In this document: positions 11,476 to 26,187 of the stretch, piece by piece
Layout: each line of letters starts with the position of its first letter
Position numbering within the stretch: position 1 is the first letter of the stretch
Source: Mycobacterium marseillense
Lineage (GTDB): Bacteria; Actinomycetota; Actinomycetes; Mycobacteriales; Mycobacteriaceae
NCBI RefSeq assembly: GCF_010731675.1
Contig: NZ_AP022584.1
Span: forward strand, 5,022,001 to 5,086,000
Direction: 5' to 3'
DNA: 64,000 bases
Program-made: the position numbers and the translations under genes
The notes under the pieces: generated by a model
The model's database searches: none
The model's input: the letters and a program-made list of their open reading frames with translations, nothing else
What the model was told of the DNA's origin: nothing

Positions 11476-12318
11476 TTAGAGCTTCACCTTGCCCATGATG
11501 ATGTCGATGATCGGCTTGCCCGGTGCGTAGGCGCCGGTCATCGAGGCCATGGTGTGACCCGAGTCCACCAGCAGGGTGATCCCGCTGACGCCGCAGGCCG
11601 CCTCGCTGTTGAGGAAGGCCATCACGTCGCCCATCTGCTCGGGCGTGTGCACCTTGGCGCCGGTCTCGTCGCGGTAGTCCTGGGCGAAGGACAGCCACAG
11701 GTCGGCGTTGGCCTGGGCCAGCGGGGTGTCGGTCGGGCCGGGGCAGATCGCGTTGATGCGAATGCCCTTCTTCGCCAACGGGTAGCCCTGGGTCGCCACG
11801 TAGGTGTTGATCACCTTCTTGCTGGTGCCGTAGTGGTTGATCCCCTCGGCCTCGTGCGCCTGGCACCACGCCTCGGCCGCCGCGAAGTCCGGGGTGGCCA
11901 GGAATTCCAGCATCAGGTCCAGGTCGTTCTCCCAGCCCATACCGGCGACCGAGGAGATGAAGCAGATGGCCGCGCCGTTGGGCAGTTGGTTCTTTTCCAG
12001 CAGACGGTCGATCAGGTGGCGGTGGCCGATGAAGTTGATCTTCATCAGGTCGATCGTTCCGTCGGCGACGCCGGCGGCGGAGAACACCGCGTGGATGGGG
12101 CCGTCGATCTGCTCGAGGGCGGCATCAATGGACGCGGGGTCGCGCAGGTCCACCTGGACGGACTGAGCGACCTTGTAGTCCACGGGCGCGTAGTCCATCA
12201 CGATGACTTCGGCGCCGAGTTCGGCCGCTGACTTGGCCGCGGCGGCGCCCATGCCAGTCGCGCCACCGACAACAAGAGCGCGCTTGCCGTCGTAGCGCAA
12301 CCGATCGACAATGGTCAT
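11476..12318 (-). CDS. Short-chain dehydrogenase/reductase
   Basis: A 280-residue classical SDR. Its cofactor loop is atypical, VVGGATGMGAAAAK, with an Asp ending strand 2 (VIVMDY) that suggests NAD preference. The active-site segment is HYGTSKKV (Tyr-x3-Lys) with the Ser in ICFISSVAG. After the catalytic region comes INAICPGPTDTPLA. Such enzymes oxidise sterol, terpenoid or hydroxyacyl alcohols. ATG 12318 has AAGGGGA about 6 nt upstream. The operator-like motif at 12375 lies 57 bp upstream, placing it with the tandem TetR cluster. Confidence 0.85.
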   Translation of the reverse strand: MTIVDRLRYDGKRALVVGGATGMGAAAAKSAAELGAEVIVMDYAPVDYKVAQSVQVDLRDPASIDAALEQIDGPIHAVFSAAGVADGTIDLMKINFIGHRHLIDRLLEKNQLPNGAAICFISSVAGMGWENDLDLMLEFLATPDFAAAEAWCQAHEAEGINHYGTSKKVINTYVATQGYPLAKKGIRINAICPGPTDTPLAQANADLWLSFAQDYRDETGAKVHTPEQMGDVMAFLNSEAACGVSGITLLVDSGHTMASMTGAYAPGKPIIDIIMGKVKL

Positions 12319-12374
12319 GGAAATCCCCTTCTCGGATAATGCCAACGCGGTTCTAACTGCTCAACTGTATGGGT

Positions 12375-12388
12375 AACAGTTATTTGGT
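12375..12388 (+). promoter_or_regulatory. Cluster operator motif, copy 1 (before SDR 11476-12318)
   Basis: AACAGTTATTTGGT lies 57 bp upstream of the SDR start in the gap between it and the tandem TetR gene. It matches the 14-bp motif at 17326 at 13 of 14 positions. See the other four copies at 13764, 17326, 19126 and 20069. Binding by the neighbouring regulator is inferred. Confidence 0.6.
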
Positions 12389-12415
12389 TCAATACCGGGG
12401 CGGGTTAAGTGAGAT

Positions 12416-13696
12416 TTACTTGCCGCCCACGGCGACGCCGCGCAGCACGGTGTCCCGCGCGTGCACCAGCCCCGCACGCGTGCCCACGTCGCGGAGGATG
12501 TTCTCCGGGATCCACTGCAAGCCGACGACACAGCGTGACAACATCGCGGTGGACGGCGCGTCGACGCCGATATCCCCCGCCCGGATGCCCTCGGAGAGCA
12601 GCGTTTTCATCTGCCGCAGCCGCGTGGCGTACAGCCAACCCGGGTTGGGCGTGTCCGGGGGCGATTGACGCATCCAGGCGAGCTGGATCCTGAACTCGTC
12701 GGAAAACCGGTCCAACGCGTTGACGTTGACCCAGCTCAGCGCGTCCAGCTTTTCGATCGGGGTGGCATCCGAGCGCAGGACGTTGACCCAGCCCGCCTCC
12801 ACCTTCTTGCCGAATGACTCCATGATCGAGGCGAGCAGCTCGTCCTTGGACCCGATCACCCGGTAGACGGTCCCGGTGCCCAGCCCGGCGGCCGACGCGA
12901 TGTCCCTGATGGTGGTGACCTCATAGCCTTTGCGACCGAATTCCGCCCGCGCCACCGCGCGCACCACCGCCGCCTTGTCGCTGGGGTCGGCGTCGCTGTC
13001 GTCGGACCAGGTGGCGATGACGTCGTTGGCGGCGGCGAAGGCCTTCGAACGGTCCAGTGCGGCGTCGGTTGGCGGTCGAGTTGCCAACCCTTGCAGGATG
13101 ATTCGGCAGAGCAGCCCGGCCACCTGGTCGCCGGGAGACTTGTGGCGCATGACGTCCAGGCCGACCTGCAGCATGGTTTGGCAGATGCGGTCGGCCAGCG
13201 TGGGCAGGTCGATGTCGGGTTTGATGTAGCCGCTCCACCGGCCGGCGCGCAGCGTCTGCAGCATCGCCTCCTGAATCGCCACGGGGCGCTGCTGCGTCAG
13301 CTTGATCAGCTCCGGATCCGTGCTCGGCCCCTCGTAGAAGGACATCTGCAAGGCGGCGCGGTGCTCGACGGCGCAATTGGCTATCGCCGCTCCGAGCTCG
13401 ACGATCTGGTCGGCGACCGGGCGGGAGTCCGGTTCGTCCAACTTCGCCTGCGCGGAGCGCCCGATCCGTTCCAGATCGTCTTGGTAGCGGCGGATCAGCT
13501 CGACGAGGATGGCCTCTTTGGACTCGAAATGGTGATACAGGCTGCCGGGAAGAATGCCTGCGGCATCGGCGATTTCCTGTAGCGAGGTCCGCAACCCCGA
13601 GGAGGCGATCAGTGACGCCGCGGTCGCCAGGATCTCGGCGCGGCGCGTCGGGGAATCGGTTGTGCCGCTGGGCCGCAGTGACTCGGCTCTCGCCAT
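12416..13696 (-). CDS. Tandem TetR regulator (two TetR domains, Mce3R-like)
   Basis: A 426-residue regulator built of two TetR units. The first helix-turn-helix lies at about residues 20-65 (LQEIADAAGILPGSLYHHFES). The second lies at about 240-285 (TIRDIASAAGLGTGTVYRVIG). Single TetR proteins are about 200 residues, so this is a fused dimer, an architecture known from Mce3R of M. tuberculosis. ATG 13696 is chosen because the motif copy at 13764 then lies in the promoter; the frame extends to 13816. It sits among genes that carry the same 14-bp motif, so I infer it represses them and itself. The inducer is probably an acyl-CoA or terpenoid intermediate. Confidence 0.88.
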   Translation of the reverse strand: MARAESLRPSGTTDSPTRRAEILATAASLIASSGLRTSLQEIADAAGILPGSLYHHFESKEAILVELIRRYQDDLERIGRSAQAKLDEPDSRPVADQIVELGAAIANCAVEHRAALQMSFYEGPSTDPELIKLTQQRPVAIQEAMLQTLRAGRWSGYIKPDIDLPTLADRICQTMLQVGLDVMRHKSPGDQVAGLLCRIILQGLATRPPTDAALDRSKAFAAANDVIATWSDDSDADPSDKAAVVRAVARAEFGRKGYEVTTIRDIASAAGLGTGTVYRVIGSKDELLASIMESFGKKVEAGWVNVLRSDATPIEKLDALSWVNVNALDRFSDEFRIQLAWMRQSPPDTPNPGWLYATRLRQMKTLLSEGIRAGDIGVDAPSTAMLSRCVVGLQWIPENILRDVGTRAGLVHARDTVLRGVAVGGK

Positions 13697-13763
13697 GATC
13701 AGCGCTGTGCGAGCCCGGACGACTGCGGGGTGGCGAACATGCGCATTCGTCCTCTCGTGCCGA

Positions 13764-13777
13764 ACCAAATCTTTGTT
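13764..13777 (-). promoter_or_regulatory. Cluster operator motif, copy 2 (before tandem TetR)
   Basis: On the minus strand this reads AACAAAGATTTGGT, 68 bp upstream of ATG 13696 of the tandem TetR gene. It suggests autoregulation. It differs from the copy at 17326 at two positions. Confidence 0.55.
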
Positions 13778-13834
13778 AGAGGCTATCAGACCGGGCCCGA
13801 TGAATGCGCTGCACAAAGCAGTGAAAGCCCCATT

Positions 13835-14482
13835 CTAAAGCGCCGGCCCGTCCCAGCGGTCTCGCGCAACCACTTCCTCGACCGGTCGCCGGGGGGCCGG
13901 CCGAAAGGTGCGCCCCGCGCGAAGCCGGCCCACCGGCAGCAGGCAACCCTGCACGTAGGTTTGCGGAATTCCGAGTAACTTTCGGACTTCTTCCTCGTGG
14001 TGCAGGTGCAGCGTCGTGACGCAGGTCCCGTATCCGCGGGTGTGCAGCGCGAGCTGAAAATTCCATACCGGCGGGAAGATCGACCCGTACAGCGTTGCCA
14101 GGTGGAACGATTCGTCACCGTCGATGCGGGGCAAGTAGGGCTCGTAGCAAGGGATTACCAGCAGCGGCACGCGGGCCATGTTCTCGACCAGCCACTCCGT
14201 GGACGACATGACCCGGCTCTCGGGCGTCCCCGCCGGCATGAGGTCGGCAAGCAACTGTCCGCCGACCCGCCGTAGGTAGGCCTCGCGATACAGCTCGGCG
14301 ATCTTGGCGCGCAGCACCGGTTCGGTGATCACCAGCCAGCGCCACGACTGGGCGTTGGATCCGTTCGCGGCCTGCAGGGCGATCCGCAGGCATTCGCGGA
14401 TGTCGTCGAGATCGACGGCCGCGTCCAGGTCGAGTGACTTGCGTGCCGACGGCGTCGCGGTGAGCAGATACTCGATGTCCAT
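13835..14482 (-). CDS. Nitroreductase family FMN oxidoreductase
   Basis: A 215-residue nitroreductase-fold protein, expected to bind FMN as a homodimer and use NAD(P)H. Typical blocks are TPSARKSLD near the start, ANGSNAQSWRW (FMN contact), MARVPLLVIPCYEP and WNFQLALHTRGYGTC. Its ATG 14482 overlaps the TAA of the upstream acyl-CoA dehydrogenase by one base, so it is translationally coupled to the FadE pair. In this setting it may be an ene-reductase or dehydrogenase for a degradation intermediate rather than a nitroaromatic enzyme. Substrate unknown. Confidence 0.85.
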   Translation of the reverse strand: MDIEYLLTATPSARKSLDLDAAVDLDDIRECLRIALQAANGSNAQSWRWLVITEPVLRAKIAELYREAYLRRVGGQLLADLMPAGTPESRVMSSTEWLVENMARVPLLVIPCYEPYLPRIDGDESFHLATLYGSIFPPVWNFQLALHTRGYGTCVTTLHLHHEEEVRKLLGIPQTYVQGCLLPVGRLRAGRTFRPAPRRPVEEVVARDRWDGPAL

Positions 14483-15600
14483 TAGTGACGTCCTCTCTTC
14501 GCAAGGCGCGCACCGATTTCGGTGAGGTGCCTGTCGGGGCCGCCGAGAAACGCGCTCCAGCCCAGCAGGCGCTTGAGATAGAGGTGGGCGTCGTGTTCCC
14601 AGGTGTAGCCGATGCCGCCGAACACCTGGATGGCGGTGTCGGCCACGGCGGCCAGCCGCCCCGCGAACGCCTTGGCCCGCAGCGCTGCAAGATGCCGCTC
14701 GTCGCCGGGTTGCCCGTCGGTGCCAGCGACCGCGTCGCTGGCCCACAGGGCGTGGATCACCCCGCTGCGGGCCAGCTCGACGGTCTCATACATGTCGACG
14801 CACAGATGCTGGATCGCCTGGAACGACCCGATCGGCTGACCGAATTGCCTTCGCGTTTTCGCGTATTCGACGGCGAGGTCCATGACGGCGCGCGCGGCGC
14901 CGAGCGCGTCGGCGGCGCCCGCGATCAGCACGTCGTCGGTCACCGCGGCGATTTGTGGCGCAGACGCGGGGCCCAGGCGCCGGGCGGGGGCCGCGTCGAA
15001 CGTGACGCGAAAGTGCTTGCGGGTCGGGTCGACGCCGCGCTCGGCCGTGACCGAAACCCCCGGCGATGGGTTCCGCACCGCGAGAAGCTGGCCGTCGGCG
15101 AGCGCGAGCAGGACGTCGGCGGCAGCGGCGTCCCGCACTCCGGCGGCCTCGCCCCGCAGTACCGCGCCGTCGTCGCGCCGGGCGGCGACCATCGGTGCAG
15201 TGGACGCGTTGTCGAGGTCCAGGAAGCACACGGCGGCGATGGTGGTGCCGTCCGCGATCCCGCGCAGCAGTTCGGTGGCGGTATCGTTGGCGCCCAACAG
15301 GTTCAGCGCCCGCGGGGCGGCCACCGCAGTCGACAACCATGGTCCCGGATGCAGCGCGGCGCCCAGCTCTTCGGCGACGATGCCGGCCTCGACCATTGTC
15401 ATGCCGGAGCCGCCATGGTCCTCCGGCACCAGCAGTCCGGTGGTGCCGAGACCGGCAAGCCCGCGCCATACGGCGTCGTCGGTTCCGGTCGGATCGTCGA
15501 GCAGCGGGCGAACATGATCGGAGATCGATGCCTTTTCGGCGAGAAAACGCCGGGTGGTGTCGCGCAGCGCCACCTGCTCGTCGGTGAGTTCGAGGTTCAT
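14482..15600 (-). CDS. Acyl-CoA dehydrogenase, FadE18-like subunit
   Basis: A 372-residue acyl-CoA dehydrogenase fold: N-terminal helical domain (DEQVALRDTTRRFLAEKA, LVPEDHGGSGM), middle beta domain, and C-terminal helical domain (AVEYAKTRRQFGQPIGSFQAI, then QVFGGIGYTWEHDAHLYLKR). It is preceded by a second, different FadE gene with an ATGA overlap. Such adjacent unlike pairs in mycobacteria (for example FadE17-FadE18 and FadE28-FadE29) form alpha2beta2 heterotetramers acting on bulky steroid- or terpenoid-CoA esters. The pair most resembles FadE17/FadE18 in arrangement, which in M. tuberculosis is also tied to Mce3R. Substrate inferred only. Confidence 0.88.
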   Translation of the reverse strand: MNLELTDEQVALRDTTRRFLAEKASISDHVRPLLDDPTGTDDAVWRGLAGLGTTGLLVPEDHGGSGMTMVEAGIVAEELGAALHPGPWLSTAVAAPRALNLLGANDTATELLRGIADGTTIAAVCFLDLDNASTAPMVAARRDDGAVLRGEAAGVRDAAAADVLLALADGQLLAVRNPSPGVSVTAERGVDPTRKHFRVTFDAAPARRLGPASAPQIAAVTDDVLIAGAADALGAARAVMDLAVEYAKTRRQFGQPIGSFQAIQHLCVDMYETVELARSGVIHALWASDAVAGTDGQPGDERHLAALRAKAFAGRLAAVADTAIQVFGGIGYTWEHDAHLYLKRLLGWSAFLGGPDRHLTEIGARLAKRGRH

Positions 15601-16745
15601 GTCCGCGGCAGCCCCAGTACCCGTTGAGCGGTGATGTTCTTGTTGATCTGGCTGGTGCCGCCCGCGATGGTCAGCGCGCGCGACGTCAGACGGTAGTCCG
15701 CCCACGGCGCGCGGCCGTCACCGTTGCCCAGGACGTCGAAGGCGAGGGCGGCAAGGTCCTGCCCGATCTCGCCCCAGACGGTCTTGGCGAGGCTGGCCGA
15801 CCCGAATGCATCACCGCCGTGCATCGTGGCCGAGATGGATCGCTGGCACAGGACTTCGAGATACTTGATGCGGACGGCGATTTCGCCGAGGCGTCGCAGG
15901 GTGACGGGGTCATTTAGCGCGCCAGGTGCGGCCGTGGCGAAGTCGTCCACCAGCTCTTCGAGTCGGACCTGCATCTCGGCGTAGAGCCGGGCGGCCCCCG
16001 CGCGCTCGTGGCTGAGCGTGGTGGTGGCCACCTGCCAGCCCGCATTGAGTGGCCCCAGCAACGCATCGGCCGGCACCCGCACGTCGTGAAAGAACACCTC
16101 GGCGAAGTCGGCGTCGCCGTTGAGCGTGACCAGCGGGCGCGCCTCGATGCCGGGCAGCCTCATGTCGACGATCAGGCAGGAGATCCCCTTGTGCTTGGGG
16201 GCGTCGGGGTCGGTGCGCACGTAGAGCTGACACCAGTCGGCCCGGTGTCCCAGCGACGTCCAGATCTTTTGGCCGTTCACGACGAAGTGGTCTGCGTCCC
16301 GAACCGCGCGGGTGCGCAGCGCCGCGAGGTCCGAGCCCGCCTCGGGTTCCGACATTCCCTGGCACCAGATGTCGTCGGCGCGCATCATGCGGGGGAGAAG
16401 GGTGAGCTTCTGGGACTCGGTGCCGTACTGCATGATGGCCGGCGCGATGTTGTTCAGCCCAATGACGTTGAGCGGCACCGGGGCTCGGGCTCGGGTGGTT
16501 TCCTCGGTGTAGACCAGTTGTTCGAGCACCGTCGCGCCGCGGCCGCCGTACTCACGCGGCCACGACACCGCGGCCCATCCCGCGTCGGCCATGGTCGCGT
16601 TCCACACCCGCAGCTTCTCGAACGCGGCATCGTCGCGGCCCGTGGGCCGGCGGGCGGCCACCAGCTCGTCGGTCAGGTGCTCCGCCAGCCAGTCACGCAG
16701 TTCGATGCGGAACTGTTCCACTTCCGCGGGGTATGAAAAGTCCAC
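15597..16745 (-). CDS. Acyl-CoA dehydrogenase, FadE17-like subunit
   Basis: A 382-residue acyl-CoA dehydrogenase and the first gene of a minus-strand operon FadE17-like, FadE18-like, nitroreductase. Key blocks are WPREYGGRGA, the FAD-contacting QGMSEPEAGSDLAALRT, VNGQKIWTSLGHRADW and the C-terminal LTIAGGTSQINKNI. It lacks the RRxFGxxI helix seen in its partner, as expected of one half of a heterotetramer. The start is GTG 16745 (MDFSYPAEVEQF) with only a weak purine-rich ribosome site. The upstream region holds an inverted repeat (16782-16819) rather than the cluster motif. Confidence 0.88.
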   Translation of the reverse strand: MDFSYPAEVEQFRIELRDWLAEHLTDELVAARRPTGRDDAAFEKLRVWNATMADAGWAAVSWPREYGGRGATVLEQLVYTEETTRARAPVPLNVIGLNNIAPAIMQYGTESQKLTLLPRMMRADDIWCQGMSEPEAGSDLAALRTRAVRDADHFVVNGQKIWTSLGHRADWCQLYVRTDPDAPKHKGISCLIVDMRLPGIEARPLVTLNGDADFAEVFFHDVRVPADALLGPLNAGWQVATTTLSHERAGAARLYAEMQVRLEELVDDFATAAPGALNDPVTLRRLGEIAVRIKYLEVLCQRSISATMHGGDAFGSASLAKTVWGEIGQDLAALAFDVLGNGDGRAPWADYRLTSRALTIAGGTSQINKNITAQRVLGLPRT

Positions 16746-16781
16746 GTCGCCTTTTTCTTTGGCCTGTTACACGTCCCTTGC

Positions 16782-16819
16782 GACCAAGCCGGACTCTACG
16801 TTCGCGCCGATGCTTGGTC
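16782..16819. promoter_or_regulatory. Inverted repeat upstream of the FadE pair
   Basis: GACCAAGC (16782-16789) is repeated inverted as GCTTGGTC (16812-16819), 30 bp apart, about 37-74 bp upstream of GTG 16745. The spacing is three helical turns, as in looped or dimer-of-dimer operators. The half-site shares the TTGGT core with the 14-bp cluster motif. Regulator not identified. Confidence 0.35.
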
Positions 16820-16957
16820 AATGACGCCGGAAGGCGGGCGAAAGGCGGCGAGCGCGCGATCCTGCCAGTCGATTCCCCGGGCGCAGCGCTGCATGCAATC
16901 GTAGCGCTCGGATCGGTCGGTCAGGTGCCGGACCTGTTGGCGCAATTCGTCATCCAC
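16796..16957 (-). pseudogene. NTF2/SnoaL-like protein remnant (N-terminal part only)
   Basis: A 53-codon fragment from GTG 16957. Its first 35 residues (DDELRQQVRHLTDRSERYD, CMQRCARGIDWQDRALAAF) match the start of SnoaL/NTF2-like proteins of about 130-170 residues. The normal continuation (the SAYHPDA-like block and the cone-shaped barrel) is missing and is replaced by unrelated sequence up to TAG 16796. It starts 2 nt after the stop of the SDR remnant, so the two were probably an operon before a deletion. Probably non-functional. Confidence 0.6.
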
Positions 16958-16959
16958 GA

Positions 16960-17232
16960 TCAGCTCCCGTGGTGTTGGGGGGTAGGGAATTCGATGGCGG
17001 TACCGCCCGGCATCGGGCTGACACCGCGGCGCGCGCACACTTCGAGCACCTCGTCGACGACGTCGTCGGCCACGCGCGAGTCGGGCGCTTCACCCGGAAG
17101 GCCCCGCATGCCGCCGCCGAGGTCGTTGACCACCACCGCGGCGCCGCGCCGGGCCAGGTCCAGCGCATAGAGCCGGCCGAGCCCGCGACCGGCGCCGGTG
17201 ACCACCGCCACCCGGCCGCTGAAGTCAATCAT
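16960..17232 (-). pseudogene. Truncated SDR remnant
   Basis: The frame starts as a normal classical SDR ([19 protein letters not shown], then [12 protein letters not shown]) and keeps the dinucleotide fold through about residue 62. It then runs into an unrelated 28-residue tail ([20 protein letters not shown]...) and stops at residue 90. The catalytic Ser, Tyr and Lys regions are absent, so it cannot be an active dehydrogenase. The tail looks coding and may be the C-terminus of a second, deleted gene fused in frame. The fragment lies back-to-back with the VWA gene. Confidence 0.65.
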
Positions 17233-17325
17233 GATGTGCTCCCGACTAACTCGTGTCCCGCGTGCGCCCCGTTGCGACAGACCAGCCCGGGCGATTGACT
17301 GCGCTCACGGCGGACTTTACGGTGG

Positions 17326-17339
17326 AACAGATATTTGGT
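17326..17339 (+). promoter_or_regulatory. Cluster operator motif, copy 3 (before VWA gene)
   Basis: AACAGATATTTGGT ends 24 bp before GTG 17364 of the VWA gene and lies between it and the SDR remnant. It is the best representative of the five copies and is used here as the reference. Its position over the likely -10 region suits repression. Confidence 0.65.
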
Positions 17340-17363
17340 CAACGACGGGTTCGGAGGTCGGGC

Positions 17364-19124
17364 GTGGCCCACGACGCACGTGGCGACCGGGTGCAGGGAC
17401 TCGGGATGCTGGCCTCGGCGCTGGCGGGCCGGGCGGTGGCCATCGCCGAACTGCAACCGGGTGAATCTACGTGGACCGACGGCCAGACGATCTACCTCGA
17501 CCCGGCCGCGCGCGGCCGCGCCCGGCTCGAGTCGGTTGCGGTGCAGGCCTCGTTGATCGCGGCCGGCAGTCTGGATCCCGACGTGGTGCGTCCCCTGGTG
17601 CGCCACCCGCGGCTGGCCAGACGCTACCTGGCGATCGAGGGCCATCGCGCATTGGTGAGTAACGCCGACCTGCTGCCGGGCGTCGTGGCGTCGGCCGGTG
17701 ATCGCGACATCGCCGGTCGCAGTGACTCGCCCGCCGCGTCGCTGGGCCTCGCCTCGTCCCGGGGAACCATCGCGGACCCGCCACCGGAATTCGGCGTGAT
17801 CCGTGCGGCGAAGGTGGTGGCGGCGGCCTCCCGAGCGGCCGCGCTGCAGAATCAGGCCGAACCGCAACATGTTCCGCGAAAGTCGGGCAACCGGAAACCG
17901 GAACTCGAGGAGCTCGACGACGGTGAGGTCGACGATTCCGACGACCCGGACTTGTTCACCAGCCCGGTGGGCGGGGGCGGATTCCTCGGCAAATGGTTGA
18001 AAAAGATGCTGTCCTCGGCGCGCAAGACCGGCAGCGGCGGCGGTCCGCCGGGCGCGGACAACCCGACCCATCGCACCAACTCCACCAAGCGCGGTGCCTA
18101 CGCCGTGACGTCGCTGGCGTCGGCCCCCGGCGATGGCGGGGACGCTGAGGGCCCCGCGGCGGACGGGGTGCGGTATCCGGAATGGGATGTCGCGCGCAAG
18201 AGCTACCGGCCCGCGTGGTGCACAGTGCGTGAGGTCGAGCCGACGATCAAAGCGTCCGCGACACAGGCCATCGACGATGCCATCGGTGTGCGACGGCCAC
18301 TGTCGCGGCTCGGCATGGGGTTGCACCGCCGCCATCGCCAGTCGCAAGGCGACGACATCGACATCGACGCCGCCGTCGAGGCCCGAGTCGAAGTGCGGGC
18401 CGGCTCGGTGCCTGACGAGGCGGTGTACCTCGACAGCCTGCGGCGCCGGCGCGACCTGTCGGTGCTGCTGCTGCTCGACGTGTCGGGGTCGGCGGGCGAG
18501 CCGGGAACCGTCGGGCGGACTGTGCACGAACAGCAGCGCGCCGCGGTCGCCAACCTCACCGTGGCGCTGCATGACCTGGGCGACCGCGTCGCGCTCTACG
18601 CCTACTACTCACAGGGCCGGCGCGCGGTGAGCATGATGCCCGTCAAGCGGTTCGACGACCATCTCAACGCTCAGGTCATCCGGCGGCTCAACAGCCTGGA
18701 ACCCGGCGCGTACTCGCGACTCGGCGCGGCGATCCGCCACGGCTCGGCCGTCCTGGAGGCGCGCGGCGGAACGTCGCGGCGGCTGCTGGTGGTGCTGTCC
18801 GACGGCCTCGCCTACGACCACGGATACGAGCGCGCCTACGGTGCGGCGGACGCGCGGCGCGCGCTGACCGAGGCTCGCAGGCGGGGGACCGGCTGCGTGT
18901 GCCTGACCATCGGCGCGGGAACCGATGTGCAATCGCTGCGCAAGGTGTTCGGCAGCGCCGCCCACGCGACGATCGCGCGGCCCGATCAGCTGGCCGGCGT
19001 CGTCGGACCGCTGTTCCGGTCCGCCCTGCGCTCGGCGGAAGTTCGCCGCAGGGCGTCGGTGATGTCAAGTCCCAGAACACAGTTGGCGCACCAACTCGCC
19101 GTACCCGCTCGCCAGGACACTTGA
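17364..19124 (+). CDS. VWA domain protein, NorD/CoxE-like partner of MoxR ATPase
   Basis: A 586-residue cytosolic protein. The C-terminal von Willebrand A domain begins at about residue 366 and has a perfect MIDAS, DVSGS (Asp at residue 372), plus LVVLSDGLAYD. The N-terminal half is helical, with an acidic, disordered middle (EELDDGEVDDSDDPD). NorD, CbbO and CoxE proteins of this type work with AAA+ MoxR/NorQ ATPases to insert metals into or remodel enzymes. GTG 17364 is chosen because GGAGG lies 6 nt upstream; the frame extends to 17253 without one. The MoxR gene follows 55 nt downstream with its own motif copy. The client is unknown. Confidence 0.88.
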   Translation: MAHDARGDRVQGLGMLASALAGRAVAIAELQPGESTWTDGQTIYLDPAARGRARLESVAVQASLIAAGSLDPDVVRPLVRHPRLARRYLAIEGHRALVSNADLLPGVVASAGDRDIAGRSDSPAASLGLASSRGTIADPPPEFGVIRAAKVVAAASRAAALQNQAEPQHVPRKSGNRKPELEELDDGEVDDSDDPDLFTSPVGGGGFLGKWLKKMLSSARKTGSGGGPPGADNPTHRTNSTKRGAYAVTSLASAPGDGGDAEGPAADGVRYPEWDVARKSYRPAWCTVREVEPTIKASATQAIDDAIGVRRPLSRLGMGLHRRHRQSQGDDIDIDAAVEARVEVRAGSVPDEAVYLDSLRRRRDLSVLLLLDVSGSAGEPGTVGRTVHEQQRAAVANLTVALHDLGDRVALYAYYSQGRRAVSMMPVKRFDDHLNAQVIRRLNSLEPGAYSRLGAAIRHGSAVLEARGGTSRRLLVVLSDGLAYDHGYERAYGAADARRALTEARRRGTGCVCLTIGAGTDVQSLRKVFGSAAHATIARPDQLAGVVGPLFRSALRSAEVRRRASVMSSPRTQLAHQLAVPARQDT

Positions 19125-19125
19125 A

Positions 19126-19139
19126 AACAAATATCTGTT
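19126..19139 (-). promoter_or_regulatory. Cluster operator motif, copy 4 (before MoxR gene)
   Basis: AACAAATATCTGTT on the plus strand; its complement AACAGATATTTGTT differs from copy 3 at one position. It starts 1 bp after the VWA stop and 41 bp before ATG 19180. It is the most symmetrical copy (AACA-N6-TGTT). Confidence 0.65.
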
Positions 19140-19179
19140 CCGGTTAGGCTCCATGCGTCGGACGATCTGAAGGGAAGCT

Positions 19180-20040
19180 ATGGCCAACGAGTCCGGGCTT
19201 GCATACTTCAACGGCGGTTCGTCCGAGGGGGAGACGCTGCGGCCCTATTACCAGGCGGTGGGAGGCGAAGAGGCCGTCTTCAAGGCGGCGTACCGCCAAG
19301 GCCTGTCGCTGGTCCTCAAAGGGCCGACGGGCTGCGGTAAGACGCGGTTCGTCGAGGCGATGGCCTATGACCTGGGCCGGCCGCTGATCACCGTCGCCTG
19401 TCATGACGACCTGACGACCGCGGACCTGGTCGGCCGGTATCTGTTGCGCGGTGACGAGACCGTCTGGGTGGACGGCCCGCTGACCCGGGCCGTGCGCGAG
19501 GGCGCGATCTGCTACCTCGACGAAGTGGTGGAAGCCCGGCAGGACACCACGGTGGTCCTGCATCCGCTCGCCGACCACCGGCGACAGCTGCCCATCGAGC
19601 GACTCGGCGTCACGCTGGACGCGGCCCCCGGATTCGGTCTGGTGGTGTCGTACAACCCCGGGTATCAGAGCGTGCTCAAGGATCTCAAGGATTCGACACG
19701 TCAGCGCATGGTCGCGATCGAATTCGACTTCCCCGCAGCCGATGTCGAAGAGGGGATCGTTGCGCACGAGGCCGGTGTGGACGGCGCGACCGCAGCCGGG
19801 TTGGTCCGTTTCGGTCAGGCGATTCGCCGGCTGGAGACCGGCGGGCTGCGCGAAGTCGCGTCGACGCGCGTGCTGATCGCGGCGGGCAGGCTGGTCGCCG
19901 AGGGGCTGAGCATGAAGGAAGCGGCCCGGGCCGCCATCGCGGGGCCACTGACCGATGACGTCGCCGTGGGCAAGGCCCTGGGCGAAATGATCGAGATTTA
20001 CCTCGGCGGGCCCGACCGGCCCGGCGGGCCCGATGATTGA
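19180..20040 (+). CDS. MoxR/NorQ/CbbQ-family AAA+ ATPase
   Basis: A 286-residue AAA+ ATPase of the CbbQ/NirQ/NorQ group. Walker A is GPTGCGKT at residues 48-55 and Walker B is ICYLDEV at about 110-116. The sensor-1 region is LVVSYNPGYQS, and a CbbQ_C-type domain follows (TRVLIAAGRLVAEGLS). Such ATPases form hexamers and, with a VWA partner, activate metalloenzymes such as Rubisco, NO reductase or CO dehydrogenase. Here the VWA partner is directly upstream, but none of those clients is in the window. ATG 19180 has GAAGGGAAG upstream. Confidence 0.92.
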   Translation: MANESGLAYFNGGSSEGETLRPYYQAVGGEEAVFKAAYRQGLSLVLKGPTGCGKTRFVEAMAYDLGRPLITVACHDDLTTADLVGRYLLRGDETVWVDGPLTRAVREGAICYLDEVVEARQDTTVVLHPLADHRRQLPIERLGVTLDAAPGFGLVVSYNPGYQSVLKDLKDSTRQRMVAIEFDFPAADVEEGIVAHEAGVDGATAAGLVRFGQAIRRLETGGLREVASTRVLIAAGRLVAEGLSMKEAARAAIAGPLTDDVAVGKALGEMIEIYLGGPDRPGGPDD

Positions 20041-20068
20041 CGCTGCATACCGCCCCCGCTAGGGTCTG

Positions 20069-20082
20069 AACAAATATTAGGT
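20069..20082 (+). promoter_or_regulatory. Cluster operator motif, copy 5 (before binding-protein gene)
   Basis: AACAAATATTAGGT lies 43 bp upstream of ATG 20125 and matches copy 3 at 11 of 14 positions. It is the weakest copy. It would control the five-gene or longer run from the binding-protein homologue to the P450. Confidence 0.5.
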
Positions 20083-20124: not shown

Positions 20125-21243
20125 ATGTCCTACGAAAGCAGTGCTGAGCCGATCAAGGTCGGCTACCTGATGGACTTCACGCTGCCGCCGGGGTTTCCCG
20201 AGGATCTCTTCGCGTCCTTCACCCAGACCTTCGACCTCATCTTCGAAGAGGCGGTCGGCCAGGGACTGATGGACCGCCCCGTGCGGATGATCTACCGCGA
20301 GGTGGAGGGCCTGCCCAAGGGTTCGGTCAAGGCGGTGATCGACGCGTATGGCGAACTGGTCGACGAAGGCTGCCTGGTGGTCTTCGGTCCCAACATCACC
20401 GATAACTGCGTGCCGTTGCGCGAGGCGATCGAGGAGCGGTTCAAGGTGCCCGCGATCAGCGTGACCGGCACCGACGACTGGCTGGGCGAGTGGACCTTCG
20501 CCTTCCCCCAGGGATCGATGACCGACGAACCCATCTTCCTGGCCGACCTGATCGCCAAACGGGGACTCGCCGAGATCGGTGTCCTGGTCGAACAGAGCCT
20601 CATTGGTGAGAGCTACCTGAAGAACCTGCGAAGTGCCTGCCGGCGCAAGGGCATTCGGATCGCAGCGGAAGTGGCGATCGCCCAGACGGCCCAGGACATC
20701 AACGCCGCGGTCCAGACGCTGCACGAGGCAAAGGCCGAGGCGATCGTGCACCTCGGATTCGGATTCGGGATCGTCTTCATCAACCCGGCGCTCGAGGCGA
20801 TCGGCTGGGACCCACCCCGTTTCACCACCACCGCGTGGCAGAACGCCTGGGTGAACCCGATCATGTGGAACGCGTTCATGGGCTGGATCGGTATCGACCA
20901 GTACGACGAGGCGAACCGGATCGGCCAGGACTTCCTCGACAGTTACGCGATGAAGTACGACGGCAGTCGTCCCGAGTTCTGCGTGACGGTGGTGAATCGC
21001 GACGTCGCCGCGACACTGGTGCGCGCGTTCACCGACGCGCACCCGCTCAGCCCGCGCGGCGTCAAGGAGGCGCTGGAGCGGGTGAAGATGATGCCCGCCG
21101 CCTCGGGGGCGCCCGGAACCCGGATCTCCTTCGGCAAGTGGACGCGACGGGCCTGGATGGGCGCCGGGTATCTGGTGGCCCGGACGCTCGATGCCGACGG
21201 CATCAACTCGCATCTGGTTGATCGCTTCGGCGAGGAAGGCTGA
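20125..21243 (+). CDS. Periplasmic-binding-protein homologue (Leu/Ile/Val type) without export signal
   Basis: A 372-residue type I periplasmic-binding fold. IKVGYLMDFTLPPGF starts the first lobe, then LVVFGPNITDNC, FPQGSMTDEPIFLADLIAKRG, and AIVHLGFGFGIVFIN in the hinge and second lobe. Branched-chain amino acid receptors carry a signal peptide or lipobox, but this one starts MSYESSAEP with neither. No permease or ATPase genes follow. It may thus be a cytosolic ligand sensor (as AmiC is) or a recruited enzyme subunit. GGAGG lies about 6 nt before ATG 20125. It is the first gene of a tight run with the AveC-like, SDR and P450 genes. Confidence 0.85.
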   Translation: MSYESSAEPIKVGYLMDFTLPPGFPEDLFASFTQTFDLIFEEAVGQGLMDRPVRMIYREVEGLPKGSVKAVIDAYGELVDEGCLVVFGPNITDNCVPLREAIEERFKVPAISVTGTDDWLGEWTFAFPQGSMTDEPIFLADLIAKRGLAEIGVLVEQSLIGESYLKNLRSACRRKGIRIAAEVAIAQTAQDINAAVQTLHEAKAEAIVHLGFGFGIVFINPALEAIGWDPPRFTTTAWQNAWVNPIMWNAFMGWIGIDQYDEANRIGQDFLDSYAMKYDGSRPEFCVTVVNRDVAATLVRAFTDAHPLSPRGVKEALERVKMMPAASGAPGTRISFGKWTRRAWMGAGYLVARTLDADGINSHLVDRFGEEG

Positions 21244-21248
21244 CGACG

Positions 21249-22400
21249 ATGTCCACCGAACAGTCCACACCGCCTGCCGCGCAACAGGAACCGATCGCCC
21301 CACCGCGAACCAACAGGCGCCGCTGGGGCGGTTGGATCTCCGGCGCCGCGCTGGCCGCCTTCGCGTTGTTCTTCATCGCGAATTGCCGGGTGGCCCTTGA
21401 CCCGCGTGTGGCGAACCCGAACGTGCAGGGGCGGCCGCGCCCGGTGAAGTTCATGTTCGGGCTGGACTACATCGGCTTCCTGGACTGGGCCACCGTGGTG
21501 GCGCTGCTCGTGCTGTTGATCGTCTTCATCAGGGGCTGGCGCCGCAACCCCGGCAGCCCGGCGATGCTGATGTTCTTGTGCACCACGCTGATCGTGTGGC
21601 AGGACCCGATCATGAACTGGTCGCCGTTCGCGGTCTACAACCCCGATCTCGTGCACTGGCCGGAATCCTGGCCGCTGGTGTCGTTGTCGCCGACGGTCGA
21701 GCCGTTCGTGGTCTTCGGTTACGTGATGTTCTACTTCGGCCCCTACTTCCCCGCCGTCTGGCTGCTCCGCAAGCTGCAGGCGAAATACGGGCCCACGAGC
21801 TATGTGTCGCGGCACCCCTTGGTGTGCCTGGGTCTGATCACCCTGGTGATCGGTTTCGTCTTCGACGCCTTCCTGGAGAACACCCTCGTCCACTGGGGCA
21901 TGTACATCTACTCACAGGTCATCCCGTGGGGATCGCTGTTCACCGGCACCACCTTCCAGTTCCCGTTGATCTGGGAGTCGTTCTCGGTGTGCTTCGTGAT
22001 GGTGCCGGCCGCGATTCTGTGTTACCGCGACGACACGGGTAAGTCGGTCGCCGAAAAGCTTGCCGCCAAAGCGAAGTTGTTCCCGAGCCGACCGGTGCTA
22101 GGCACGTTCCTGGTGATGTTCGTCATCATCAACGTGTCCTACTTCGCCTACGGCGGCTGGTTCTGGGTCATCAAGGTCAGCCATGCCGCCACCTCGGTGG
22201 CCTGCCCCTGGCCGTACCCGGAAGCCAAAGTGTATGACCCGCAAGGCTTCTACGAAAAGGCCGGCGCGCAGGGTCCGTTCTCGGTCGGCATCTGGTCGAC
22301 GTGGGCGAGCGGGGAGCCCAACGGTCGGCCCCACGTCGAGCCCCCGCCACCGGGCGAAGGCGCGTGCGCGACCACTCCTGCCGTGAGCAACCATGGCTGA
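21249..22400 (+). CDS. Spirocyclase AveC family membrane protein
   Basis: A 383-residue multi-pass membrane protein of the AveC family. A short Pro-rich cytosolic start is followed by about seven hydrophobic segments between residues 32 and 320, with family blocks KFMFGLDYIGFLDWATVV, VWQDPIMNWSPF and TTFQFPLIWESF. AveC of Streptomyces avermitilis forms the avermectin spiroketal and influences the oxidation state, while mycobacterial members have no assigned reaction. The start is ATG 21249, 5 nt after the previous stop, so it is coupled to the binding-protein gene. It overlaps the next SDR by 8 nt. Confidence 0.85.
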   Translation: MSTEQSTPPAAQQEPIAPPRTNRRRWGGWISGAALAAFALFFIANCRVALDPRVANPNVQGRPRPVKFMFGLDYIGFLDWATVVALLVLLIVFIRGWRRNPGSPAMLMFLCTTLIVWQDPIMNWSPFAVYNPDLVHWPESWPLVSLSPTVEPFVVFGYVMFYFGPYFPAVWLLRKLQAKYGPTSYVSRHPLVCLGLITLVIGFVFDAFLENTLVHWGMYIYSQVIPWGSLFTGTTFQFPLIWESFSVCFVMVPAAILCYRDDTGKSVAEKLAAKAKLFPSRPVLGTFLVMFVIINVSYFAYGGWFWVIKVSHAATSVACPWPYPEAKVYDPQGFYEKAGAQGPFSVGIWSTWASGEPNGRPHVEPPPPGEGACATTPAVSNHG

Positions 22401-23394
22401 CCCGCGCACGGTCGTCATCACCGGCGCGTCGCGGGGGCTGGGGTTCGCCTCGGCGGTGCGGCTGTATCGGGAAGGCTGGCGGGTGGTCGCGGCCATGCGC
22501 ACACCCGATGAGGGAATGCCGCTGCTGCGTCAGGCGATTCAAGACCGGGGGCTGTCCCCTGACGATGACCGGTTGATCGGTGTGCAGCTCGACCTGACCG
22601 ACACCGCGTCGATCACCGCGGCAGCCAAGGCGATCGAAGAGGCCGTGGGCGCACCGTATGCGCTGGTGCACAATGCGGGCATCTCCGCGGCCGGGATGGT
22701 AGAGGAGACCGACATGGGGCTGTGGCAGCGCATGTTCGCCACCAGCGTCCTGGGGCCCGTCGCGCTCACCCAGGCGCTGCTGCCCTCGATGCGCGCGGCG
22801 GGCGCGGGCCGAATTGTGTTGGTGTCCAGCGCCGCTGGGGTACGCGGTCAGCCCGCCACCGCGCCGTACTCGGCGGCCAAGGGGGCGCTGGAGCGGTGGG
22901 GGGAATCGATGGCGTGCGAAATCGCGCCCTTCGGTCTCGGGGTCACCGTGGTGGTCGCCGGCACGTACGACACCGAGATCATCACCGACGCCGGCACCAC
23001 CGACGACCGCGATTTCGGCGGCCCGTACGCCCGACTGCACAACACCATGAACAGCCGCGGCCGCTTCGCGATGAAAATGGCCCGGCCGCCCGAGCGCTTC
23101 ACCGACGGCCTGCTCAAGGCGCTCGAGGACCGGGTGCCATTCCGCCGCCGCGGTATCGGCCCGGACGCCTCGATGCTGCTGGCCGCCAGCAGGATCCTGC
23201 CCGTGTCGGGCATGCACCACGTGTCGCGGATTGTGCTGGGCATACCCAGGCAGGGGTCGATGCGCGGTGGCGCGTGGCCGTTGACCGTCAGCCAGAAGGC
23301 GATGGTGATGGCCGCAAAAATCATTCCGGCGCCGGTGCTGCAGCGCCTGGCATCGCTGGCAGCCAAGCGCCACAAAGGAAACGAGGGGAACTGA
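22393..23394 (+). CDS. Short-chain dehydrogenase/reductase
   Basis: A 333-residue classical SDR with a longer C-terminal tail than usual (SDRs are about 250). The cofactor loop is VVITGASRGLGFASAV. HNAGISAAGM, the catalytic Ser in IVLVSSAAG and YSAAKGALE (Tyr-x3-Lys) follow. Beyond residue 270 the hydrophobic, basic tail (KAMVMAAKIIPAPVLQ) may attach to the membrane near the AveC-like protein. The ATG overlaps the AveC-like stop by 8 nt, and the P450 start overlaps its own stop (TGATG), so all three are translationally coupled. Substrate unknown. Confidence 0.88.
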   Translation: MADPRTVVITGASRGLGFASAVRLYREGWRVVAAMRTPDEGMPLLRQAIQDRGLSPDDDRLIGVQLDLTDTASITAAAKAIEEAVGAPYALVHNAGISAAGMVEETDMGLWQRMFATSVLGPVALTQALLPSMRAAGAGRIVLVSSAAGVRGQPATAPYSAAKGALERWGESMACEIAPFGLGVTVVVAGTYDTEIITDAGTTDDRDFGGPYARLHNTMNSRGRFAMKMARPPERFTDGLLKALEDRVPFRRRGIGPDASMLLAASRILPVSGMHHVSRIVLGIPRQGSMRGGAWPLTVSQKAMVMAAKIIPAPVLQRLASLAAKRHKGNEGN

Positions 23395-24611
23395 TGGAAC
23401 AGCTGTTCGACGACTTGGAGGATTTCGGCGCCTTCGACGACGCGATCTCCGGTGACGTGCGTGACCCGTACACCGAGCTGGCCCGGCTGCGCCGCGAGGA
23501 CCCGGTGCAGCGACTCGAGACGTCGGGAGCGCTTCCGCACGAGGAATCTCTGCCGATGTTCATCGTGTATCGCCACGAGGACATCCAGCAGATGTTGCGC
23601 GACAACGAGACGTTTTCCTCCTCCGCCGTCATCGCCGCATTCGGTCCGGTGCTGGGTGAAGGCGTGATGCTCGGCATGGACGAGCCCATCCACGGCCGGC
23701 TGCGTTCGCTGGTATCGAAGGCGTTCTCGCAGAAGTCGTTGGCGCGCTGGCAGGACGAGTTGGTCGGGCGCGTGGCGAACAGCCTGATCGACAACTTCGC
23801 GTCCAACGGAAAGGCAGACCTGGTCAAAGAATTCACCTTCGACTACCCGAGCCAGATCATCGCGGGATTGCTGGGCTTGCCGGAAGCGGACTACCCGCAG
23901 TTCCAGCGGTGGTCGATTTCGCTGCTGAGTTGGTTGATGAACCCGGATCGTGGGCTCGCGGCCTCCGCCGCGCTGTGCGAGTACTTCGCGCCGATACTCG
24001 AGGCCCGCCGGGCAGAGCCGAAGGACGACTTGATCAGTGCGCTCGCCGCGGCCGAGATCGACGGCGAAAAGCTCGCGGACGAGGAGATCTTCTCGTTCCT
24101 GCGCTTGCTGCTGCCCGCCGGGGTGGAGACCACGTATCGCTCGCTGGGCAGCCTGCTGCTCGCGCTGCTGTCCGATCCCGAGCAGTTGGACGCCATCCGC
24201 GCGGATCGTTCACTGCTGCCGCAGGCCATCGAGGAGGGCGTGCGCTGGGAATCGCCGCTGTTGACCATCACGCGGGTGGCGACTCGCGACACCGAACTCG
24301 GCGGCGTGGCGATCCCCGCCGGCGCGACCGTGATGCCGATGCTCGGTTCGGCCAACCGGCAAGACGATCGCTATCCGAATCCGGACACGTTCGACATTCA
24401 CCGGGAGGCCCGGGCACACCTGGGCTGGGGGCACGGCGTGCACGTCTGTCTCGGCATGCACCTGGCGCGGCTCGAGATGCGCACCGCCATCAACCTTCTG
24501 CTCGACCGGCTGCCGAACCTTCGGCTGGATCCCGACGGGGACGACCCCCACATCCGCGGGCAGGTCTTCCGGTCGCCGACGTCGGTGCCGGTGCTGTTCG
24601 ACCCCCAATAA
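23394..24611 (+). CDS. Cytochrome P450
   Basis: A 405-residue soluble bacterial P450 monooxygenase. The I-helix motif is LLPAGVETTYRS (AGxET), the K-helix ExxR is EGVRW, and the heme loop is LGWGHGVHVCLG with the thiolate Cys at residue 352. The Phe usually seven residues before this Cys is replaced by Leu. It needs a ferredoxin and reductase, and neither is adjacent. The position in an SDR/AveC-like/P450 run suggests hydroxylation of a hydrophobic ring or side chain that the SDR then oxidises. I cannot assign the CYP family number. Confidence 0.92.
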   Translation: MEQLFDDLEDFGAFDDAISGDVRDPYTELARLRREDPVQRLETSGALPHEESLPMFIVYRHEDIQQMLRDNETFSSSAVIAAFGPVLGEGVMLGMDEPIHGRLRSLVSKAFSQKSLARWQDELVGRVANSLIDNFASNGKADLVKEFTFDYPSQIIAGLLGLPEADYPQFQRWSISLLSWLMNPDRGLAASAALCEYFAPILEARRAEPKDDLISALAAAEIDGEKLADEEIFSFLRLLLPAGVETTYRSLGSLLLALLSDPEQLDAIRADRSLLPQAIEEGVRWESPLLTITRVATRDTELGGVAIPAGATVMPMLGSANRQDDRYPNPDTFDIHREARAHLGWGHGVHVCLGMHLARLEMRTAINLLLDRLPNLRLDPDGDDPHIRGQVFRSPTSVPVLFDPQ

Positions 24612-24702
24612 GCCGCCCCGCGGCCGGCTGCGCCTTGCCAATCGGCTAGTTTCCGGTAAGGCTCTCCGTAGCCCTTCAACGACCCAGAAGAGAGTGACAG
24701 AT

Positions 24703-26187
24703 ATGACTGAGGCTGTAAAGGTCCGCTTCGAGCCGAAGATGATGATCGACGGCAAGCTCGTCGACGGGCAGGCCGGCACCTTCACCAACATCAACCCGGC
24801 GACCGAGGAGTCGCTCGGCGAGGTGGCCGACGCCTCGATCCAGGACATGCACCGGGCCATCGACGCCGCCCGGCGCGCGTTCGACGAGACCGACTGGTCG
24901 ACCAACCGCGAACTGCGCAAGCGCTGCCTGTTGCAGCTGCACGAGGCGATCGAATCGGAGAAGGAAGAACTGCGCGAGGAGCTCATCCTCGAGGTCGGCT
25001 CGCCCCGGGCCATCACGTTCGGCCCCCAGCTGGACGCCCCGCTGGAAGACGGGCTGAAGTACCCCGCCCGGTTGATCGACGAGTACGCGTGGGAAACCGA
25101 CCTGGGCGACAAGGTCATCAGCCTCACCGGCACGCTGACCACCCGCAAGGTATGGCGGGAACCGGTGGGTGTGGTCGGCGCGATCGTGCCGTGGAACTTC
25201 CCATTCGAAGTCACCCTCAACAAGCTCGGCCAGGCGCTGGGCACCGGCAACACGGTGGTGCTCAAGCCGGCACCGAACACGCCGTTCAACGCCACCCGGC
25301 TCGGCCGGTTGATCGCCGAGAAGACCGACATCCCCGCCGGTGTGGTCAACGTCGTCACCGCGTCGGATCACTTCGTGGGCGAGGAGCTCACGCTGTCACC
25401 GAAGGTCGACCTGATCTCCTTCACCGGTTCGACGGTGGTCGGCAAGCGGATCATGGAAAAGGGTGCGGCCACCATGAAGCGGCTGTTCCTGGAGCTCGGC
25501 GGCAAATCGGCCACCATCGTGCTCGAGGACGCCGACTTCGGGACCGCCTGCATGGTCGGCATCGCGCCGTGCATGCACGCCGGTCAGGGTTGCGCCAACC
25601 CGACCCGGCTGCTGCTGCCGCGGTCCCGCTACGACGAGGGCGTGGAGATCCTCAAGAACATCTACGAGAACGTCACCTGTGGCGACCCGCAGGACCCCGC
25701 CACGCTGTGCGGTCCGGTGATCTCGCAGCGACAGTTCGAGCGGGTGACGGGCTACATCAAGAAGGGCGTGGAGGAAGGTGCCACGGCGCTGGTCGGCGGT
25801 CCCGACGCCCCGACCGGCTTCGACAAGGGATACTTCGTCCGGCCAACGCTTTTCACCAACGTCGACAACAAGATGACCATCGCGCAAGAGGAGATCTTCG
25901 GCCCGGTGCTCTCGGTCATTCCGTTCGACGACGAGGAGGACGCGATCCGGATCGCCAACGACAGCGTGTACGGGTTGGCCGGCAATGTGTTCGCGGGCTC
26001 CCTCGAGCGCGCGCTGTCGGTGACCCGCCGCATCAAGGCTGGCTTCATGGGTGTCAACGGCGGCGCCCCGTACGGCGCCGACACCCCGTTCGGTGGCTAC
26101 AAGGAAAGCGGTGTGGGTCGCCAGAACGGTGTCGCCGGGTTCGACCAGTACACCGAGGTCAAGTCGGTCGCCTACCCCGCCGGCTGA
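24703..26187 (+). CDS. Aldehyde dehydrogenase family protein
   Basis: A 494-residue NAD(P)-dependent aldehyde dehydrogenase. It has PWNFPFEVTLNKLGQALG, the cofactor loop FTGSTVVGKRIM, LELGGKSATIV with the general-base Glu, and the catalytic Cys at residue 297 in GQGCANPTR, then EEIFGPVLSVIPF. ATG 24703 has AGAAGAGAG about 8 nt upstream; GTG at 24694 is less likely. It follows the P450 by 91 nt and ends in a hairpin, so it is probably its own unit. It would oxidise an aldehyde to an acid for CoA activation. Confidence 0.92.
   Translation: MTEAVKVRFEPKMMIDGKLVDGQAGTFTNINPATEESLGEVADASIQDMHRAIDAARRAFDETDWSTNRELRKRCLLQLHEAIESEKEELREELILEVGSPRAITFGPQLDAPLEDGLKYPARLIDEYAWETDLGDKVISLTGTLTTRKVWREPVGVVGAIVPWNFPFEVTLNKLGQALGTGNTVVLKPAPNTPFNATRLGRLIAEKTDIPAGVVNVVTASDHFVGEELTLSPKVDLISFTGSTVVGKRIMEKGAATMKRLFLELGGKSATIVLEDADFGTACMVGIAPCMHAGQGCANPTRLLLPRSRYDEGVEILKNIYENVTCGDPQDPATLCGPVISQRQFERVTGYIKKGVEEGATALVGGPDAPTGFDKGYFVRPTLFTNVDNKMTIAQEEIFGPVLSVIPFDDEEDAIRIANDSVYGLAGNVFAGSLERALSVTRRIKAGFMGVNGGAPYGADTPFGGYKESGVGRQNGVAGFDQYTEVKSVAYPAG

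Follow-up and report, generated by a model that had tools for sequence, protein, structure and literature searches.

Candidate 14-bp operators of a tandem TetR regulator at a probable lipid-degradation regulon of Mycobacterium marseillense

Two described regulators of the TetR family come closest to the one considered here. Mce3R of Mycobacterium tuberculosis (PDB 9b7y; PMC11667970) is likewise a tandem TetR, and its operator consists of two asymmetric 25-bp sites 53 bp apart, with no palindrome. KstR2 (PMC3068626) is a single-domain regulator of a local regulon and recognizes the 14-bp palindrome AnCAAGnnCTTGnT. The stretch analyzed in this study, referred to as the window, comprises 64,000 nucleotides of Mycobacterium marseillense (C1:5022001-5086000 of a 5.5-Mb genome; contig of 5.49 Mb) and encodes a tandem TetR with two TetR_N domains. 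Instead of the Mce3R arrangement, single 14-bp near-palindromes, similar in outline to the KstR2 operator, are found at six promoters, with one more in eroded form. This regulator very probably acts at these operators on a lipid-degradation regulon, a reading based on the sites, their conservation, their promoter placement and their co-occurrence with the regulator gene, as seen in the sequence, together with a predicted fold. Mce3R was the only tandem TetR with a described operator or DNA complex that turned up in a literature search.

12375..12388, plus strand: operator of the short-chain dehydrogenase (SDR) promoter, AACAGTTATTTGGT, 1 mismatch to the reference AACAGATATTTGGT; in the spacer between -35 TTGAAC (12387-12392, minus) and -10 TACAGT (12364-12369, minus)
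12416..13696, minus strand: tandem TetR regulator, 426 amino acids, two Pfam TetR_N domains, proposed repressor
13764..13777, minus strand: operator of the TetR gene's own promoter, AACAAAGATTTGGT, 2 mismatches; directly after -10 TAGCCT (13780-13785, minus)
16805..16818, plus strand: operator belonging to the FadE operon, eroded, with 5 mismatches; occupies the 17-bp spacer between -35 TTGACC (16816-16821, minus) and -10 TAGAGT (16793-16798, minus)
17326..17339, plus strand: operator of the VWA gene, AACAGATATTTGGT, 0 mismatches; after -10 TACGGT (17318-17323), with -35 TTGACT (17295-17300)
19126..19139, minus strand: operator of the MoxR gene, 1 mismatch; between -35 TTGAAA (19121-19126) and -10 TAGGCT (19145-19150)
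20069..20082, plus strand: operator of the binding-protein operon, AACAAATATTAGGT, 2 mismatches; after -10 TAGGGT (20060-20065), with -35 TTGACG (20037-20042)

An initial annotation of the window had proposed five copies of one word, and all five are present with zero to two mismatches to AACAGATATTTGGT. They stand upstream of start codons, as it had said, at distances that measure 24-67 bp (SDR 56, TetR 67, VWA 24, MoxR 40 and binding protein 42 bp) rather than 24-68 bp. The imperfect symmetry that it had described is evident in the near-palindrome AACARATATTTGGT, whose halves are AACARAT and ACCAAAT. The TetR gene holds an operator in its own promoter, as in autoregulated TetR-family repressors. 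At up to three mismatches the window contains seven matches to AACAGATATTTGGT, namely the five sites, the other strand of the MoxR site and positions 40227-40240, and 100 dinucleotide shuffles of the window gave a mean of 0.57 and a maximum of 4, none reaching 7. The annotation's statement that no further copy exists in the window holds for clear copies; it had passed over the match at 40227-40240 (AACCGATATTGGGC, 3 mismatches), which may be a coding chance, because a similar word sits within P450 genes of two relatives (L057 and L063).

The TetR was searched for in 148 relatives, of which 51 carry it, at 60 places. The promoter survey took in 58 of the 59 TetR places outside the window (G043:C178, near a contig start, was left out) and 80 named loci (the best 80 of 432 confirmed), giving 138 loci plus the window. 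Genes matching from their first 15 residues were used, with up to 200 bp upstream; distinct sequences were kept, and the best match to the reference was scored. In counts that are not of independent events, since the species behind the rows are related and in some cases one strain supplies both a named and an unnamed locus, the operator was found within two mismatches at 83/87 VWA promoters (78 exact), 63/72 SDR, 67/80 MoxR, 69/91 binding-protein (85/91 within three), 72/106 TetR and 46/80 FadE promoters. Control genes inside the operons were nearly empty at the same threshold (FadA 0/80, AveC 0/78, P450 0/62, nitroreductase 1/55, second SDR 2/88 and aldehyde dehydrogenase 3/54), and shuffled motifs averaged at most 0.16. 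One 14-bp near-palindrome per promoter is the rule. Site columns carry 1.69-1.93 bits compared with 0.67-1.29 bits in the flanks, the site figure being raised by preselection of rows at up to three mismatches. Spelling and orientation are mostly promoter-specific, with the orientation reversed in 4/88 TetR and 1/69 MoxR sites.

The operators overlap the core promoters in all six promoter sets, from the relatives and the window. In the reverse-type promoters (SDR, FadE and MoxR), read in gene direction, a -35-like TTGA.. element has its start 3 to 5 bases upstream of the site, and the -10 element, TAnnnT, lies at +19/+20, so that the operator fills the space between the two. In the forward-type promoters (VWA, TetR and binding protein), the -10 is mostly at -8 or -9, immediately upstream of the operator (at -10 in 10/85 binding-protein promoters), and a -35 lies at -31 to -33 in the VWA and binding-protein promoters, with none in the TetR promoter. 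The -10 occupies its fixed offset in 70/70 SDR, 50/52 FadE and 53/68 MoxR promoters (11 more one base on), and in 80/85 VWA (plus 3), 77/84 TetR and 70/85 binding-protein promoters (plus 10). The window promoters display these elements, the MoxR spacer being 18 bp, and the placement of the words on them had been missed by the initial annotation. At every promoter where orientation can be told, the AACA half is directed towards the -10. It is conceivable, if rather doubtful, that the tandem TetR reads an oriented operator with one fixed head always towards the -10 and also pairs operators, so that the 7.7-kb cluster would be looped and repressed as a single domain; Mce3R homodimers hold two DNA duplexes (PMC11667970).

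A scan of the whole genome, which the initial annotation had suggested, was performed with the pattern AACANWNDTTWGKT, written to cover the five window words and a sixth, so that its informative part is the absence of other matches. It returned exactly six matches, the five window sites and C1:348149-348162, and the reversed control returned one. At one mismatch there were 24 additional rows (one being the other strand of the MoxR site) against 25 in the control, a background level that leaves no further clear operator copy in the genome. The reference AACAGATATTTGGT at up to three mismatches was noisy, with 102 matches against 43 for the reversed control. On a circular 5.49-Mb contig, the sixth site, missed by the initial annotation, would be about 0.8 Mb from the window. 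A gene for a DapB-like oxidoreductase and genes for luciferase-like monooxygenases diverge on its two sides, and close by are another AveC-like protein, a P450 and a second Peripla_BP_6 protein (L210:13376-14485; 76% identical to that of the window). In 9 of 19 other stretches (L211-L215, L220, L224, L228 and L229), most of the 19 having been chosen for a pattern match, the DapB-like gene is flanked by the operator word. Ten stretches with near matches elsewhere in the genome were also collected; L176 is the remote operator, and the remaining nine match at background strength, several of them inside long frames and that of L171 standing 57 bp upstream of a 563-residue frame.

The word follows the regulator gene across genomes. 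Among 88 genomes of the genus, AACARATNTTWGKT was found by hand count in 47/48 with the TetR and in 2/40 without it, the two being G077 and G005, the latter a draft of 84% completeness in which the cluster is present. The order sample of 298 genomes overlaps the genus sample. It was scanned with a pattern that allowed Y in place of T at position 7, a one-letter change made once such words had appeared in L086; matches were present in 29/31 genomes with the TetR and 14/267 without, and at two or more distinct places in 28/31 and 0/267. Copies are also present in three genomes of a different family (G111, G120 and G128; positive under the narrower pattern as well), up to 12 kb from a TetR of 46-48% identity, one of the four places in G111 being on a different contig. 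In two of these three the binding-protein gene is missing at the cutoff used. This pattern links the word to the regulator and not to the cluster alone.

Both TetR_N stretches lie in one polypeptide (a single 472-codon frame in the genome scan), and its closest relatives, at up to 96% identity, are Mycobacterium records, one named M. intracellulare. The predicted fold matches Mce3R over both halves as an asymmetric intramolecular pseudo-dimer, and other TetR chains ranked below Mce3R in the fold searches, showing the common fold only. The resemblance to Mce3R suggested by the annotation therefore extends to two-domain architecture and predicted fold but not to orthology. Sequence matches to 9b7y are confined to query residues 17-109 and 19-72, the DNA-binding parts, and a second tandem TetR of the genome (L179:6418-7716; G000:C1:3985417-3986715) is nearer in sequence, aligning to Mce3R over 20-395 with an E value of 1.2e-28. 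On the predicted fold and sequence, this is a tandem TetR of the Mce3R fold that is not Mce3R and whose candidate operators are of a different kind. No mce genes were found among the proteins that were domain scanned, a set that did not cover the mce operons of the genome.

The claim that these sites form a regulon of the tandem TetR is thus supported by conservation at six promoters with near-empty controls, by co-occurrence of gene and word, and by promoter geometry. Several observations weigh against it. No copy within two mismatches was found in 34/106 TetR promoters, some of them belonging to paralogues. The FadE promoter of the window (16793-16821) retains its -35 and -10 and has lost a usable operator. 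The Foldseek comparison with Mce3R (TM 0.61/0.67; root-mean-square deviation 7.1) is not close in every measure. The Fisher value for the genus comparison (p 2.5e-21) overstates independence, as do such values generally here, because the genomes are related and the samples overlap. The TetR, cluster and sites are mostly co-inherited, so that co-occurrence in the genus alone cannot separate a word bound by the TetR from one that is simply part of the cluster. Among TetR-bearing genomes, G052 has no pattern match, though its TetR promoter holds a two-mismatch form; G170, with a 40%-identical TetR, has none; and G263 has a match at one place only.

Binding of the sites by another regulator, most plausibly KstR2, was considered. 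KstR2 ranks with the nearest solved structures in sequence to the N-terminal half of the TetR and resembles either half in fold, and 7 or 8 of the 10 fixed letters of its published motif (PMC3068626) are common to the words. Such binding is very unlikely. The G6/C9 core of the KstR2 motif is missing from all six operators, and a KstR2-type pattern narrower than the published one, AVCAAGNNCTTGBT (control 4 rows), occurs at 6 genome places, none at the operators; KstR2 was set aside as the binder with its type of site elsewhere in the genome. The operator word is also absent from nearly all genomes that lack the tandem TetR, although kstR2 is reported (PMC4482099) as one of the regulators that every mycobacterium in the comparison except M. 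leprae has conserved. Three of the six KstR2-type palindromes lie at G000:C1:4377868-4387264, beside a TetR of 204 amino acids, and this is probably the KstR2 cluster.

The near-fixed position of the words on -35/-10 elements would also be expected if they were promoter elements themselves, recognized by a sigma factor or an activator, yet the words stand in two different positions with respect to the -10, and on opposite strands, which is unlike a promoter element. Word presence tracks the TetR gene, and in the window FadE promoter the word has eroded next to an intact -35 and -10. We give this explanation little credence, about as little as KstR2, and an activator role would still be compatible with the sequence. 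That the words are chance matches or a mobile repeat has a negligible probability; three-mismatch matches are common genome-wide, but the shuffles, the intra-operon controls and conservation across many species speak against chance, and the divergence of the flanks leaves no larger repeat.

As the annotation had reported, the FadE promoter has no clear copy of the word. The inverted repeat described there (16783-16789 / 16812-16818) is present; the left arm is not the same in the relative L031, and the right arm is operator residue; the eroded operator had not been recognized as such. With its promoter kept and its operator lost, the FadE operon of M. marseillense is predicted to be free of repression, and this apparent escape from control offers a natural experiment. 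Among 69 distinct divergent FadE/VWA regions, 27 are shorter than 250 bp, of which 23 have one site between the genes, and 36 are at least 600 bp, of which 25 have two or three; that of the window spans 618 bp with an SDR remnant and one intact site. The VWA operator also lies in the spacer of a promoter on the minus strand, TTGACC (17337-17342) / TAAAGT (17314-17319). This promoter-like pair accompanies the SDR remnant, and fuller versions of the remnant may be present where relatives have longer intergenic regions.

For the tandem TetR as repressor, we infer binding, repression, a ligand and a pathway as follows. One polypeptide would fold as an asymmetric, Mce3R-like pseudo-dimer and set its two DNA-binding heads, which differ from each other, on a single near-palindromic operator, AACARATATTTGGT. 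The bound regulator would block RNA polymerase by covering the -35/-10 spacer at SDR, at MoxR and, in relatives, at FadE; at the VWA gene, its own gene, the binding protein and probably the remote luciferase-like locus, it would sit just past the -10, over the probable transcription start. Release would come from a small ligand, which by analogy is probably an acyl-CoA thioester that the pathway produces. The regulon would encode a pathway that degrades a bulky lipid, steroid-like or of another kind, with a two-subunit acyl-CoA dehydrogenase, two SDRs, a P450, an aldehyde dehydrogenase, a MoxR/VWA pair, AveC-like and binding-protein-like partners and luciferase-like monooxygenases; it is the FadE pair, with the SDRs, P450, aldehyde dehydrogenase and luciferase-like enzymes, that suggests such a substrate.

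A repressor seated on promoters is an ordinary principle; the interest lies in a second type of tandem-TetR operator, its oriented placement and its testability. The group is distinct, with a sharply defined operator and six target promoters, is kept in many Mycobacterium species and recurs in another actinobacterial family. It provides a testable regulon for an uncharacterized lipid pathway of nontuberculous mycobacteria and allows the reading of a nearly symmetrical site by a two-headed repressor to be tested directly. A literature search for the regulon or its gene set found no publication, its coverage leaving out most subscription papers, and this is no proof of absence.

In TetR paralogues (L062, L076, L077 and L079-L081), sites before or beside the gene have ACC at both ends, so that not every member of the wider group shows the A/C asymmetry. 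More distant tandem TetRs are found in Nocardia and Streptomyces. A paralogous tandem TetR of 57% identity in G012 and G305 is surrounded by its own group of variant sites (L084:3854, 5589, 5697; G305:C1:4992648-4997098). An extra AACAAATATTAGGT stands some kilobases past the binding-protein operon in close relatives (L031:78; G060:C120:24488; G058:C419:28764), with no such match there in the window, indicating that the edges of the regulon vary among species.

The gene order of the cluster, with the TetR gene between the first two entries, is as follows.

11476..12318, minus strand: SDR (PF13561/PF00106)
13835..14482, minus strand: nitroreductase-family protein, last gene of the FadE operon (PF00881)
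14482..15600, minus strand: acyl-CoA dehydrogenase subunit (best PDB sequence match 6wy8_A)
15597..16745, minus strand: acyl-CoA dehydrogenase subunit (best PDB sequence match 4x28_A, next 6wy9_A)
about 16964-17231, minus strand: truncated SDR remnant
17364..19124, plus strand: VWA-domain protein, MoxR partner (PF13519)
19180..20040, plus strand: MoxR/CbbQ-type AAA+ ATPase (PF07728, PF08406)
20125..21243, plus strand: Peripla_BP_6 binding protein (domain search), starting MSYESSAEPIKVGYLMDF
21249..22400, plus strand: AveC-like protein (PF17198)
22393..23394, plus strand: second SDR (domain search)
23394..24611, plus strand: cytochrome P450 (PF00067)
24694..26187, plus strand: aldehyde dehydrogenase (PF00171)

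Each of the two FadE proteins corresponds in sequence to a different subunit of known two-subunit acyl-CoA dehydrogenases (4x28; 6wy8/6wy9, Tcur3483 and Tcur3481). In the PDB sequence search, the best matches of FadE 15597-16745 were 4x28_A and Tcur3483, and those of FadE 14482-15600 were Tcur3481 first and 4x28_D fourth; 4x28 we take to be FadE26-FadE27. Scores against NCBIfam equivalogs fell far below the cutoffs. A sequence search for solved relatives of the Peripla_BP_6 protein found none. Because no signal sequence is evident by eye in its first 40 residues, this protein is perhaps cytoplasmic.

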